Of a DNA stretch of 64,000 nt, positions 10,592 through 39,139 are shown piece by piece. The stretch is from Thermotomaculum hydrothermale (GTDB lineage: Bacteria; Acidobacteriota; Holophagae; Thermotomaculales; Thermotomaculaceae). Every line of letters begins with the position of its first letter. The first letter of the stretch is position 1. The stretch spans positions 1,870,501-1,934,500 of the forward strand of contig NZ_AP017470.1 of assembly GCF_016592575.1 (NCBI RefSeq). Reading direction: 5' to 3'. A program made the translations under genes and the position numbers. Below the pieces are notes generated by a model. The model was not told where the DNA came from. It was given only the letters and a program-made list of their open reading frames with translations, and did not search any database.

Positions 10592-11158
10592 ATGTTTGAG
10601 GAAAAGATCGAATTACCCGAACAAAAAACAGAATTTCCATATTCTTCCCCAATGTATCTCTATATCCCAGTAGGAAGATTAATTTTTCTTTCTATATTCT
10701 CTTTTCACCTCTATGAGGCATACTGGATTTATAAAAACTGGCAATACTTAAAAAAAAGGAAAGGCTTAAATATCCGCCCTTTCTGGAGAGGTGTTTTCGG
10801 AGTACTGTTTTGCCACAGTTTATTCAGGATGATTTACAATGACGAAGAAGCAATTGCTATAAAACAGCCTACTTTTTCACCTAAAAAACAAGGAAATTAC
10901 TTTGTAACTTTGTCTATTGGATCAGGTCTTATAAACAGAGCAAAAAATTTCTGGGCAGGAGTTTTGATGCCTTTTGTCCCTTCATATCTGGCTTTTGTCC
11001 CGGTTCAAAAATATATAAACGAGATAACAGAAAAAAGAAACCCAACACAGCAGTATTATAAATGGTCATGGGGGCACATTTTGTGTATTATTTATGGAAC
11101 ATTGTTTTGGGGACTAATTTTGCCTGCTATATTTCTAAAACTAAAAATGATGTTCTGA
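10592..11158 (+). CDS. Multi-pass membrane protein of unknown function, 188 aa
   Basis: Not assigned to a named family. I chose the ATG at 10592 because AAGGAGG (10581-10587) is correctly spaced; an overlapping TTG at 10589 is too close. Hydrophobic segments lie around residues 25-45, 65-80 and 125-145, with a last one near 165-182. The motif YWIYKNWQYLKKRKGLNI followed by PFWRGVFG recurs, as I recall, in other small bacterial membrane proteins of unknown role. Short paired segments occur on both sides of a charged middle. It lies upstream of, but is separately promoted from, the cytochrome bd-like pair. Confidence 0.7.
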   Translation: MFEEKIELPEQKTEFPYSSPMYLYIPVGRLIFLSIFSFHLYEAYWIYKNWQYLKKRKGLNIRPFWRGVFGVLFCHSLFRMIYNDEEAIAIKQPTFSPKKQGNYFVTLSIGSGLINRAKNFWAGVLMPFVPSYLAFVPVQKYINEITEKRNPTQQYYKWSWGHILCIIYGTLFWGLILPAIFLKLKMMF

Positions 11159-11267: not shown

Positions 11268-12791
11268 ATGAATTATCCTGTATGGTTTTTGCCTTCAATA
11301 GGCGGGGGCACCTTAATAGCATTTATCGCTATTGTGCATGTTTTTGTGTCCCACTTTGCGGTTGGGGGAGGTGCTTACCTTATTGCTTTAGAAAAAAAAG
11401 CATACAATGAGGAAAGCAATGAATTACTTGAAATTACAAAGAGGTTTGCAAAGTTTTTTATCCTTTTAACAATGGTTTTCGGTTCAATTACAGGTGTTGG
11501 TATATGGTTTATTACAGCACTTGTTAACCCCGGGGGAATTTCCCTGCTTATCCACAACTTTGTATTTGGATGGGCTGCTGAATGGGTTTTCTTTGTACTT
11601 GAGATTATCGCAGCCTTTGTTTACTATTACACTTTTGGAAAGATGGATAGAAAAACTCACCTGAAAATTGGCTGGATTTACTTTATATCTGCATGGATGA
11701 GTTTATTCTTAATTACAGGAATTATTGACTTTATGTTAACACCAGGCACATGGCTTAAAACACACAATTTCTGGAATGGCTTTTTCAACCCTTCCTTTAT
11801 TCCATCAGTAGGCTTCAGGACTTTTATGTCTTTCCTTATGGCAGGGGTGTTTGGTTTGTTTGTTCTATCATTTTATAAAAATAATGAGGCAAAGGAAAAA
11901 TTTGTAAAATACTCAGCATTGTGGGTAACAATTTCCATTATTTTGATGATACCATTTGCTTTGTGGTATGTGTCTGTCCTTCCTTCTGAAGCAAAAGCGC
12001 TTGTATTAGGGAAATCACCTGAGATTGTTAGAACAACAAAGGTTATCATTACAAGCGGGATTATAGGGTTTGTTTTAGGCTTGATTGTTTTCTTTAAACC
12101 TTCATTTAATAAAGCATATATAGCATTCATTATTTTCCTTACAGGATTCTTTGTAATTGGCTCTTTTGAATGGACAAGGGAAGCGGCAAGAAGGCCTTAT
12201 GTTATAAATAAGGTTATGTATTCAAATATGATTTTAGAGAGTCAACTTGAAACCTTGAAAAAAGATGGTTTTCTAAAACACGCAAAATGGGTTAGTGCAA
12301 GAGAGATAACAAATGAAAACAAAAGACAGGTGGGAAAAGAACTTTTTATCCACCAGTGTTATGCGTGCCATACAATAGGTGGATTCAATAATGACATAAA
12401 AGAAAAAGCAGCTTCTATGAGTTACACCGCCCTTACAAAATACATTGAAAAGATACACAAGGTAAGATACTTTATGCCACCTTTTGCAGGAAATGAAGAG
12501 GAAGCAAAGGCTCTTGCAGCTTTTATAGCAGGTGATTTATTAGGCAAAGAGGTTAAAGAACCTGTAAAAAAAGCACTTGATGGAAAAACAATATTTGAAG
12601 ACAATTGCTCATCATGCCATGAACCATCAGATTTTGAAGATTTAATTGCTGGCTGGGACAAAGCAAAGATAAGAAAAGCCCTTGATATGCTTGATAAACT
12701 AAATGAAGAAATGCCACCTTTTGAGGGCACACCTCAGGAAAAAGACACATTAACCGAATACCTTTTCAAAATTGCAGGGGGTGAAAAATGA
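11268..12791 (+). CDS. CydA-like membrane protein fused to a dihaem cytochrome c domain, 507 aa
   Basis: The first ~340 residues resemble subunit I of the cytochrome bd superfamily: an early helix with His24 and His29 (IVHVFVSHF), then FGSITGVGIWF and a VLEI helix where CydA has its conserved Glu. The CydA quinol-loop motif is absent; instead SFEWTREAARRP occurs near residue 300. The C-terminal third carries two CxxCH haem c motifs (C364/C367/H368 and C447/C450/H451), each followed by a plausible Met ligand region (MPPF). The electron donor may therefore be a c-type chain rather than quinol alone. It overlaps the next gene by 4 bp (ATGA). An in-frame GTG at 11262 is less likely as the start than the well-spaced ATG. 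Confidence 0.85.
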   Translation: MNYPVWFLPSIGGGTLIAFIAIVHVFVSHFAVGGGAYLIALEKKAYNEESNELLEITKRFAKFFILLTMVFGSITGVGIWFITALVNPGGISLLIHNFVFGWAAEWVFFVLEIIAAFVYYYTFGKMDRKTHLKIGWIYFISAWMSLFLITGIIDFMLTPGTWLKTHNFWNGFFNPSFIPSVGFRTFMSFLMAGVFGLFVLSFYKNNEAKEKFVKYSALWVTISIILMIPFALWYVSVLPSEAKALVLGKSPEIVRTTKVIITSGIIGFVLGLIVFFKPSFNKAYIAFIIFLTGFFVIGSFEWTREAARRPYVINKVMYSNMILESQLETLKKDGFLKHAKWVSAREITNENKRQVGKELFIHQCYACHTIGGFNNDIKEKAASMSYTALTKYIEKIHKVRYFMPPFAGNEEEAKALAAFIAGDLLGKEVKEPVKKALDGKTIFEDNCSSCHEPSDFEDLIAGWDKAKIRKALDMLDKLNEEMPPFEGTPQEKDTLTEYLFKIAGGEK

Positions 12792-36000: not shown

Positions 36001-36030
36001 AAAAAGCGGGGATTTTTCCCCGCTTTTTTT
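36001..36030. terminator. Bidirectional terminator between metK and the DUF1573 gene
   Basis: AAAAAGCGGGGA, short T loop, TCCCCGCTTTTTTT. A-tract and T-tract on either side let it serve both convergent genes. Confidence 0.9.
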
Positions 36031-36050: not shown

Positions 36051-37055
36051 TTAGTACAATCTACCTCTCACAGGAATTGAATACTCTTTTACTCCGTTAA
36101 CATCCACAAGTATTCTTATTATCCCTGAAAAAATTTTCCCCTTTTTGCCTCTTTTATAATTAGGCTTTACAAGTATTTGTTTGTCCTTCTTTGAAATGTC
36201 AATTACCTTAAAATCAAGAGGGCAATCCTTGCACTTTACAGATTTTATTTTCAATCCATTTTCAAGCTCGGTGGTAATCTCAATGGTTGCAGGAGCAGTC
36301 TTTCCGTTTACATTTGTATACATAAAAAGTGCAGTAGGAGTAATATTAATAACCTTTTTTATTTTTACCCTCATATAAAATGAAAGTGTAGGCACCTGCT
36401 TTGAATTTGTTTTAACTTTAACAGTGAGAGAAGAATTCTTAAACTGATAAACCGCTTTTTTAGGGGTTAAAGAGAATTTTAAAAAATCCTTGTTACCACT
36501 CCCTTTTACCGCTTTTACCTTTAAATCAAAAAAAAGATTCCCGTTAAAGGGATAGGTTATCTCCCACCCTTTTACTTTAAGGGGTTTATTCATATTGTTA
36601 ATTACTTGCACTGAAAAAGTTTTTGTTTTCCCTGGAACTAAGTCATAGAAGAACAGGGTATTATTTCTTAATTCAAGCTCTGCGTATGTATTGCCCCTTA
36701 GCACAAGATTAATATCATTATCTTTAATAGAATTTGATTTTACTCTAATCCTTTTTGCCCACATTCCTGTGTGGGTTCCAGTATTATAAAAAGCTTTAAT
36801 AACTCCTGATTCTCCAGGTTCATATTCCACTTTATCCAAAGTGGATGTTGTGCAGCCTCACCCTGGTTTTACCATGTAAATTATAAGCTTTTCATCTCCT
36901 ACATTCTTGAATTTAAACTCGCCTGTAACCTTTGTATGAATAGGCACTTTTCCCACATCAATTAGTTTTTTCTCAAATTGAATCTGAGGGCCTTTTGCAA
37001 AGAGGAAAAGCACTGCAAAAAGGTTAATAACAATAATTCCTAAAACCTTCTTCAT
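36051..37055 (-). CDS. Secreted DUF1573-domain protein with in-frame TGA, candidate selenoprotein
   Basis: Read as one gene of 334 residues from the ATG at 37055 (Shine-Dalgarno AGGAGG). Signal peptide to about residue 20 (FLFAKG), then a DUF1573 domain: VGKVPIHTKVTGEFKFKNVG...IIYMVKPG, TGA at 36860-36858, then GCTTSTLDKVEYEPGESG. DUF1573 members normally have CGCT here, so TGA stands exactly where the first Cys belongs, giving U-G-C if decoded as selenocysteine. The frame is unchanged on both sides and the downstream half lacks its own start and ribosome site. A stem-loop fitting the bacterial SECIS rules follows. TGA is an ordinary stop elsewhere in this window. The C-terminal half is beta-rich with a second Cys pair (KCKDC). 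The alternative is a nonsense mutation. Function unknown; redox or metal binding is plausible. Confidence 0.65.
36826..36845 (-). promoter_or_regulatory. Candidate bacterial SECIS stem-loop
   Basis: In the minus-strand RNA an 8-bp perfect stem UCCACUUU / AAAGUGGA closes a GGAU loop. The loop begins after 20 nt downstream of the UGA. The bacterial SECIS consensus asks for a UGA-to-loop distance of about 16-37 nt, a stem of 4-16 bp and a G among the first two loop bases; all are met. CAU and AUG can extend the stem below a small bulge. Confidence 0.55.
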
Positions 37056-37081
37056 ATATCCTCCTAAAATAAAGTCTCTAT

Positions 37082-39109
37082 TTATAAGACGGGTTTTAAT
37101 ACATTTAGTTTTAATTTTCTCAAAATTGGGTCAATTTCAACAATCTTAACCTTTAATTTCATTCCTATTGTAATCTTTTTCCCGTTTTCATTTATGAGAA
37201 AGTGCCCGGTCGGGTCAAGGGTATAGTATCCCTTTAAATCTGACAGGGGAATCATTCCATCAACATAGAATCCATCAAGTTCTGCAAACAAGGTATGTTC
37301 AGAAAAACCTGAGACTATTGCATCACACTCCCTCACTCCCTTCTTCTCAATATCTTTCAAAATAAAGTACTCTGCTGTGTCAAGTTCCGCAAAGAATGCA
37401 TCTCTCTCCAGAGTGGAAACAAGTTTTGCTATCCATTCTAATTCACTCTTTTTATAGGGAAGCCCTGTTTTTTCAATAGCAGCTTTAACAATTCTGTGGA
37501 CAACAAGGTCTGGATACCTTCTAATAGGGGAAGTGAAATGCAGATATTCAAGCTTATTCAACCCGAAATGAAGCCCAGGTCTTGCAGAGTATTCAGCCCT
37601 TGTAAGATAACGCAATGTAATATAGTGAAGATTCCTGTCATTAATAGAATTTATAAGTTCAGGCAAAGTTTTGTCGTAAGTTTTGTAGCCTGCACTTTCA
37701 AACAAAACAAATAAGTCTGCAAGCTTTTCGTCATCAGGGGCAGGGTGTATTCTGAAAATTCCTGGAAGGTTTCTTTTTATTAAAAAATTTGCCACACATT
37801 CATTTGCAAGAAGCATAAACTCTTCAATAAGCTTTTCTGCATCCTGCTGCACCTGAGGCTTTAAGTCAACCAGCTCACCCTTTTTTGAAACCTTAACATA
37901 AGGCTTTTCAACATTAAGGAAAAGAGCCCCCTTTCTCAACCTTTTCTGCCTGAGTTTTTTTGACAAAATATGCATTTTGTCTATAGTTTCTTTTAACCCC
38001 TTAACCTCAGGGTAAGGAAACTCTGATTTGCCGTGAAAATACTCGTTTAATTTTTCATAGGTCAGCCTTGCTTTACTTTTTATAACAGATTTTGTGAGAT
38101 AGTATGAAATTACATTTCCCTTTTTATCAAGTGTAATTATGCAGGAAAGAGTAAATCTATCCTCATAAGGCTTTAAACTACACAAGTCATTTGAAAGCTT
38201 CTCAGGAAGCATTGGGACAACTTTTCCAGGCATATAGGTGGTAACACCCCTTATCATTGCTTCAGAATCAAGGCAACTCCCCTTTTCAACAAAATGAGAA
38301 ACATCTGCAATATGCACCCCTAAAACATAGCCTTTTTTTGTCTCTTTTAAAGAAACAGCGTCGTCAAAATCCTTCGCATCCTCTCCGTCAATTGTAAAAA
38401 CAAGGTCATTTCTCAAATCAAGCCTCTTTGAAAAAAAGCTGTCTTCAAGAGTGAGATGCCTTGCCTCTTCCATTACTTCTGGTGGGAAAAATTGTTTTAT
38501 TGAGTGAAGATACATATTTAAATCGTATGCCCCTTTTGCATTGTCTGAAAACTCTCTTATTACTTCTGCTTTTTTGCCAGTTATATATTCAATGACAGGT
38601 GATTTAACCCTTCCTTTAACATAAATCCTTTTAAACCTGATTTTTACCCTGCCGTTTTTAACTCTTCCCAACCTTCTATAAAATGCCCTATCAGTCACTG
38701 TTGCGACAATACCTGCGTCTCTATTTTTCAGTTTTAAAAGCATCACCTTATCACTATCCATTAATATTGTGGAAAGGTTTTTAGGAGGTATAACCCTTAA
38801 TACTTTTTTACTTCCCCTTATTTTGAATATAAGGTTTCCTTTTCTACCTGCGTAAATCTTACCTTCGTACAATTTTTCGTACTCATGACAAACCTGCTTT
38901 TGAGAAGTTGTTTGATACTCATTGCTTAAACGATAACAGTTGTTCTCAGTTTTAACAATTACCCCTTCCCTGATAAGTGATTTCAAAACATCTCTCAGGT
39001 AAGACATCTCCCCCCGTGGAAGGTTCAGGTGTTTTCTAATTCTTTTTATTCCTATGGGATTTTTCTGTTTTTTTAGAAAATTAAGGATTTCCCTTTTAAT
39101 TAACTGCAT
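37082..39109 (-). CDS. rnr: Ribonuclease R
   Basis: 3'-5' exoribonuclease for structured RNA. N-terminal winged-helix region (KREILNFLKKQKNPIGIKRIRKHLN), OB/cold-shock region, RNB catalytic domain with DGEDAKDFDDAV (metal-binding Asp residues), PMLPEKLSNDLCSL and FTSPIRRYPDLVVHR, then a C-terminal S1 domain. I prefer the ATG at 39109, which has CGGAG about ten bases upstream. The frame is open to an ATG at 39139, but that start has no ribosome-binding site and would overlap the tRNA promoter. About 675 residues, slightly short of E. coli RNase R because the basic C-terminal tail is missing. Confidence 0.93.
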   Translation of the reverse strand: MQLIKREILNFLKKQKNPIGIKRIRKHLNLPRGEMSYLRDVLKSLIREGVIVKTENNCYRLSNEYQTTSQKQVCHEYEKLYEGKIYAGRKGNLIFKIRGSKKVLRVIPPKNLSTILMDSDKVMLLKLKNRDAGIVATVTDRAFYRRLGRVKNGRVKIRFKRIYVKGRVKSPVIEYITGKKAEVIREFSDNAKGAYDLNMYLHSIKQFFPPEVMEEARHLTLEDSFFSKRLDLRNDLVFTIDGEDAKDFDDAVSLKETKKGYVLGVHIADVSHFVEKGSCLDSEAMIRGVTTYMPGKVVPMLPEKLSNDLCSLKPYEDRFTLSCIITLDKKGNVISYYLTKSVIKSKARLTYEKLNEYFHGKSEFPYPEVKGLKETIDKMHILSKKLRQKRLRKGALFLNVEKPYVKVSKKGELVDLKPQVQQDAEKLIEEFMLLANECVANFLIKRNLPGIFRIHPAPDDEKLADLFVLFESAGYKTYDKTLPELINSINDRNLHYITLRYLTRAEYSARPGLHFGLNKLEYLHFTSPIRRYPDLVVHRIVKAAIEKTGLPYKKSELEWIAKLVSTLERDAFFAELDTAEYFILKDIEKKGVRECDAIVSGFSEHTLFAELDGFYVDGMIPLSDLKGYYTLDPTGHFLINENGKKITIGMKLKVKIVEIDPILRKLKLNVLKPVL

Positions 39110-39110
39110 C

Positions 39111-39139
39111 TTGACTTTACTCCGAACTAACTTTATCAT
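39111..39139 (+). promoter_or_regulatory. Sigma-70 promoter of tRNA-Leu
   Basis: TTGACT (39111-39116), 17-bp spacer, TATCAT (39134-39139); the tRNA starts 20 bp later. It overlaps the 5' end of the divergent rnr unit. Confidence 0.6.

Follow-up and report, generated by a model that had tools for sequence, protein, structure and literature searches.

Selenoproteins of the DUF1573 kind are already on record, from deltaproteobacteria. OS_HP2 (pfam07610, UxC motif) was represented by two sequences in GOS in a 2008 paper (PMC2398784), and a "DUF1573 domain-containing protein, UGC" appears in the tables of a 2022 (PMC9312934) and a 2026 (PMC13188914) review. The 2022 review credits the DUF1573 selenoprotein to 2007 work on an Olavius symbiont (PMC9312934). 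A dedicated NCBIfam model, NF041425 OS_HP2_seleno, also exists. The statement of the initial annotation that no DUF1573 selenoprotein had been described was therefore wrong. No mention of such proteins from Acidobacteriota or Zixibacteria was found in the literature searched, which covers the field in part. The TlpA-type UGC selenoproteins (PMC13188914), probably exported redox proteins as well, also contain U-G-C but have a thioredoxin fold, unlike the Ig-like fold of the protein described here, and no relation between the two is claimed.

The gene studied here lies in a 64,000-nucleotide stretch of the Thermotomaculum hydrothermale genome, the whole of which is referred to as the window. Its predicted protein has the DUF1573 domain, an in-frame UGA, and a U-G-C motif with selenocysteine (Sec) at the first Cys in common with OS_HP2. 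It differs from OS_HP2 in having three Ig-like domains, in being acidobacterial, in belonging to a Sec clade of its own, and in scoring below the curated cut-off of NF041425 (48.8 bits, E-value 6.7e-13; cut-off 100 bits). With this model, a Desulfobacterales gene reaches 130 bits, and scores of 105 and 128 were obtained for two further genes from Acidobacteriota. The match of the window protein is clear but below the cut-off, suggesting an outlying member of the known kind. Judged from its sequence, the window protein is of the same kind as the OS_HP2 selenoproteins and represents a separate lineage.

Gene structure and the in-frame TGA

The gene is a single minus-strand frame composed of 65 codons from the ATG, a TGA at 36860-36858, and 268 further codons closed by a TAA (Table 1). 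This confirms the initial annotation, in which two ORFs of one frame were parted only by the TGA. Read through, the protein has a signal-peptide-like N-terminus beginning with MKK and reads MVKPG-U-GCTTSTLDKVEYEPGESG around the TGA. The PF07610 (DUF1573) match in the joined protein spans the TGA, with 76.8 bits against a gathering score of 26.1. As had been proposed, the TGA falls on the first Cys of the DUF1573 CGCT motif and gives U-G-C, and the alignment shows Cys at this column in other homologs.

TGA terminates 8 of the 43 long ORFs in the window (for example at 11156-11158 and 12789-12791). Since ordinary genes here end in TGA, the code is not reassigned, in agreement with the initial annotation. 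Code reassignment was thus rejected, and so was a frameshift, because the TGA frame is intact in relatives. In-frame TGAs join two open stretches of at least 60 codons at seven places in the window, and a single interrupted gene is found only at 36860-36858; at the other large place (61859), the ATG of the next gene follows the TGA almost directly. For the TGA motif with its K and PGE spacing, 0.00 chance hits are expected in the window.

An in-frame TTG (36839) is the only early start of the part after the TGA, and no Shine-Dalgarno site was found for this part; the second ORF had indeed been described as lacking a ribosome site and an ATG of its own. The TTG, or a later ATG, could start a second protein, with the TGA closing a short secreted peptide ahead of it. 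Besides the missing Shine-Dalgarno site, such an arrangement would deprive the second half of a signal peptide, split a beta-sandwich between strands 57-64 and 69-73, and leave the downstream hairpin, the conserved Cys68, and the Cys homologs unexplained. We regard it as extremely improbable.

The order rnr, Sec-DUF1573, and convergent metK is kept in both genera that carry the gene, where contigs reach. No redox partner was found in the gene neighborhood, in which rnr and metK are the only conserved neighbors. A GC-rich hairpin with A and T runs on its flanks lies between the convergent DUF1573 and metK genes (window 36006-36023) and is probably a terminator common to both.

Table 1. Features of the DUF1573 locus, in window coordinates, and of the Sec-SelD gene elsewhere in the genome.
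Feature	Position	Strand	Remarks
Predicted DUF1573 selenoprotein, complete CDS	36051..37055	-	334 residues, Sec at position 66; TAA 36051-36053
Shine-Dalgarno AGGAGG	37060..37065	-	4 bases ahead of ATG; from sequence
Putative signal peptide	36996..37055	-	approximately residues 1-20; from sequence and a predicted helix 4-16 of low pLDDT
In-frame TGA, predicted Sec66	36858..36860	-	
Cys68	36852..36854	-	invariant partner of predicted Sec66 (motif U-G-C)
SECIS-type hairpin UCCACUUU-GGAU-AAAGUGGA	36826..36845	-	8 pairs; loop GGAU 36834-36837
DUF1573 Ig-like (ASH/HYDIN-type) domain	36690..36983	-	residues 25-122; holds U-G-C
Second Ig-like domain	36360..36677	-	residues 127-232; AlphaFold2 model
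Third Ig-like domain	36060..36350	-	residues 236-332; AlphaFold2 model
RNase R type gene (rnr)	37082..39139	-	directly upstream, gap of 26 bases; gene name from sequence reading
Sec-SelD	L018 2445-1399; genome 901670-902596	- (L018)	

Conservation of the TGA and the downstream hairpin

Eight orthologs were found in separate assemblies, counting the window gene, and each of them has the TGA at the same codon. Five belong to the window's genus and three to a sister genus at 35-37% identity; the named relatives are Acidobacteriota MAGs. After the TGA, dN/dS is approximately 0.05 in the computable pairs (e.g., 0.11 versus 2.44), indicating strong purifying selection. A pseudogene or a sequencing error, with the TGA as a true stop and the remainder decaying, would agree with the 65-residue fragment encoded before the TGA and with ordinary gene calling, which stops there. 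Both are ruled out by the frame and the TGA conserved across the eight orthologs and by the selection acting behind the TGA in the computable pairs, and we give them practically no credence. In the class's two other families (f2 and f3), the relatives read CGCT at the Sec column. These Cys-type proteins share the domain and have a similar length, but carry a Cys codon where the window gene has TGA. In a further MAG of the sister genus, tRNA-Sec and SelA are present and the DUF1573 match is weak; a full-length Sec-DUF1573 ortholog was not found in it.

A SECIS-type hairpin begins 13 bases after the UGA and spans 13 to 32 bases downstream. The published rule for bacterial SECIS elements describes a loop of 3-9 nt with G in the first two places, a stem of 4-16 bp, a distance of 16-37 nt from the UGA, and a minimum free energy of -7.5 kcal/mol or lower. 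The window hairpin lies within these ranges, with the loop GGAU, 8 bp, 20 bases from UGA to loop, and -8.1 kcal/mol when folded alone. Silent-site conservation was calculated from the codons for the same residue in all species of a genus as the fraction that is identical. Among the five species of the window's genus, 7 of 7 hairpin columns are identical, compared with 19% gene-wide. The sister genus also has 7 of 7, compared with 31% gene-wide, and in both genera the hairpin is the maximum of the gene. Two stem pairs show compensatory changes on both sides between the genera (U-A to G-C and A-U to G-C), and a third is changed from U-A to U-G, alongside one C-A mismatch. In the stem, 95% of the cells pair; sliding the partner strand lowers this to 58% or less.

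By itself, the window hairpin is not unusually stable (z of -0.51 and -1.0 in two tests, the latter codon-controlled). Single-sequence stability is uninformative here, and only the codon-controlled and comparative tests are informative. The codon-controlled z has a median of -1.49 in 30 Sec genes versus 0.44 in 51 Cys genes (p = 3.5e-7, uncorrected for relatedness). Applied to the minimum-energy fold, the strict SECIS rule selects only 14 of the 30 Sec genes, versus 9 of the 51 Cys genes. UGC DUF1573 genes from other acidobacterial families (L083 and L090-L099) in many cases have a strong hairpin about as far from the UGA, but its loop departs from the usual G rule, as in CCUCGUUCGACGAGG.

Selenocysteine machinery and Cys/Sec exchange

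The genome containing the window is a single contig of 2.32 Mb. It was searched for the four components suggested by the initial annotation, and all were found: tRNA-Sec (76.3 bits, anticodon tca), SelB (355 bits), SelA (569 bits), and SelD (341 bits). The active-site codon of SelD is itself an in-frame TGA (KAAGUAGKLG), indicating a second, classical selenoprotein in this genome. Leaky reading of UGA is known in bacteria, so that readthrough as near-cognate Trp or Cys, without selenium, has to be considered. The complete Sec machinery, the Cys at this column in homologs, and the conserved hairpin at the right distance all argue against it, and we consider it very improbable. The UGA at codon 66 is very likely read as selenocysteine, as suggested by the machinery, the TGA in all eight orthologs, the purifying selection, the conserved hairpin, and the Cys homologs. 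The initial annotation had named missing SelB or tRNA-Sec, homologs without Cys at this column, and frameshifted relatives as grounds for refutation. The genome has the machinery, the homologs have Cys, and the relatives have an intact TGA frame; the candidate selenoprotein stands, and the novelty claimed for it does not.

Among the genomes with a UGC gene, 29 of 30 have tRNA-Sec or SelA. In the remaining one, a MAG of 92% completeness with its UGC gene (L029) at C118:10459-11445, neither was found; either contigs are missing or the machinery was lost. SelA was found in none of the eight genomes tested from the Cys-type f2 and f3 families. Four other Cys-type genomes (f3) have tRNA-Sec while keeping Cys, indicating that a genome with Sec machinery need not carry the Sec form.

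Scanning 84,980 species genomes for the pattern retrieved 18 UGC genes of this spacing, all in open DUF1573-type frames. They come from Acidobacteriota and Zixibacteria, apart from one in a member of the Desulfobacterales and one in an unassigned bacterium. Eleven more UGC genes, in seven further families, were obtained when 396 acidobacterial genomes were searched at the protein level. In this sample, tRNA-Sec was found in 13 of the 17 genomes for which a UGC gene was detected versus 182 of 379 others (p = 0.02), counts that are rough because the protein search probably missed at least one UGC gene. The case concerned is G139, which is apparently the genome of locus L056, as the tRNA-Sec coordinates are identical. 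No UGC motif was found in G291 and G317. In the Zixibacteria search, loci flagged "1 TGA" gave the impression of dozens of Sec genes, which was rejected: when 30 of these loci were read, UGC was found only in L101-L106, and the other flags most likely reflect the terminal stop of the gene itself within an over-long alignment. Adjoining same-strand DUF1573 paralogs, a UGC copy beside a CGC copy, occur at the Zixibacteria loci L066 and L067 and form natural Sec/Cys pairs in one genome.

In a tree of 81 domains, based on approximately 110 columns and a sampling that favors Sec, the eight genes of the window's family form one Sec clade (support 100/96). The Sec label changes 10 times overall on this tree, and at least six changes are forced by well supported branches. 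The new observations are this eight-ortholog Sec clade in an acidobacterial family, the occurrence of UGC genes in Zixibacteria and in no fewer than seven other families of Acidobacteriota, and the tree-forced Cys/Sec changes. The first Cys of the CGC motif in DUF1573 may be a hot spot of Cys/Sec exchange in general, with many gains and losses across Acidobacteriota, Zixibacteria, and Desulfobacterota; we judge the chances of this to be even.

Protein fold and proposed function

The AlphaFold2 model shows three beta-sandwich domains (mean pLDDT 86.6, pTM 0.66). Sec66-Gly-Cys68 is placed in the first of them, at the turn that joins strands 57-64 and 69-73. A search of the PDB with the single protein sequence gave no match, and a profile search matched 2qsv and HYDIN-type chains. 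The first domain shares its fold with VesC (6bqm; Z 11.7 over 99 residues, rmsd 2.5), a member of the HYDIN/CFA65/VesB-like Ig/ASH group, and with HYDIN (2e6j; Z 10.8 over 100 residues, rmsd 2.2). The protein 2qsv, of unknown function, is linked to this domain by sequence profile, and its aligned stretch is without C-G-C. No catalytic relative that would explain the U-G-C motif was found among the fold matches, which give the fold and not the function.

In the proposed mechanism, SelB and tRNA-Sec(UCA) would insert selenocysteine at codon 66, with the hairpin 13 to 32 bases downstream of the UGA as the guide. The product would be a presumably exported signal-peptide protein of three Ig-like domains, the first of which (DUF1573) would present Sec-Gly-Cys on a turn between two strands. 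A periplasmic redox job is envisaged as the most likely one, in which a Sec-Cys selenenylsulfide would form and break reversibly through exchange with thiols, disulfides, or an oxidant. We regard a redox role of the Sec-Gly-Cys pair as fairly likely, from the general behavior of Cys/Sec exchange.

The protein may instead be a selenoprotein in which Sec-Gly-Cys binds a metal or forms a structural selenenylsulfide and takes no part in redox exchange. The Ig/ASH fold is non-enzymatic and a catalytic relative was not found, which fits this possibility, as does a second CxxC in domain 3 (Cys275 and Cys278; window 36222-36233). This CxxC is present in all five species of the window's genus and absent from the sister genus, and it might pair with the Sec motif. 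Metal sites, however, seldom benefit from Sec. Recurrent Cys/Sec exchange at one position is moreover typical of redox-active cysteines (PMC1088965, PMC9312934). A metal-binding or structural role is thus the less likely, though a quite conceivable, alternative to the redox role.

DUF1573 is a widespread family of secreted proteins with no assigned function, and Sec points to the residue at which the chemistry probably takes place. Because Sec marks one defined position, the scattered exchanges and the Sec/Cys pairs at L066/L067 open the CGC motif to direct functional tests. Entire lineages of a known selenoprotein escape the annotation model now in use, as NF041425 at its cut-off fails on the window protein. 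If the exchange hot spot is real, DUF1573 would be a large, unstudied secreted Ig-like redox family with a fold unlike thioredoxin.
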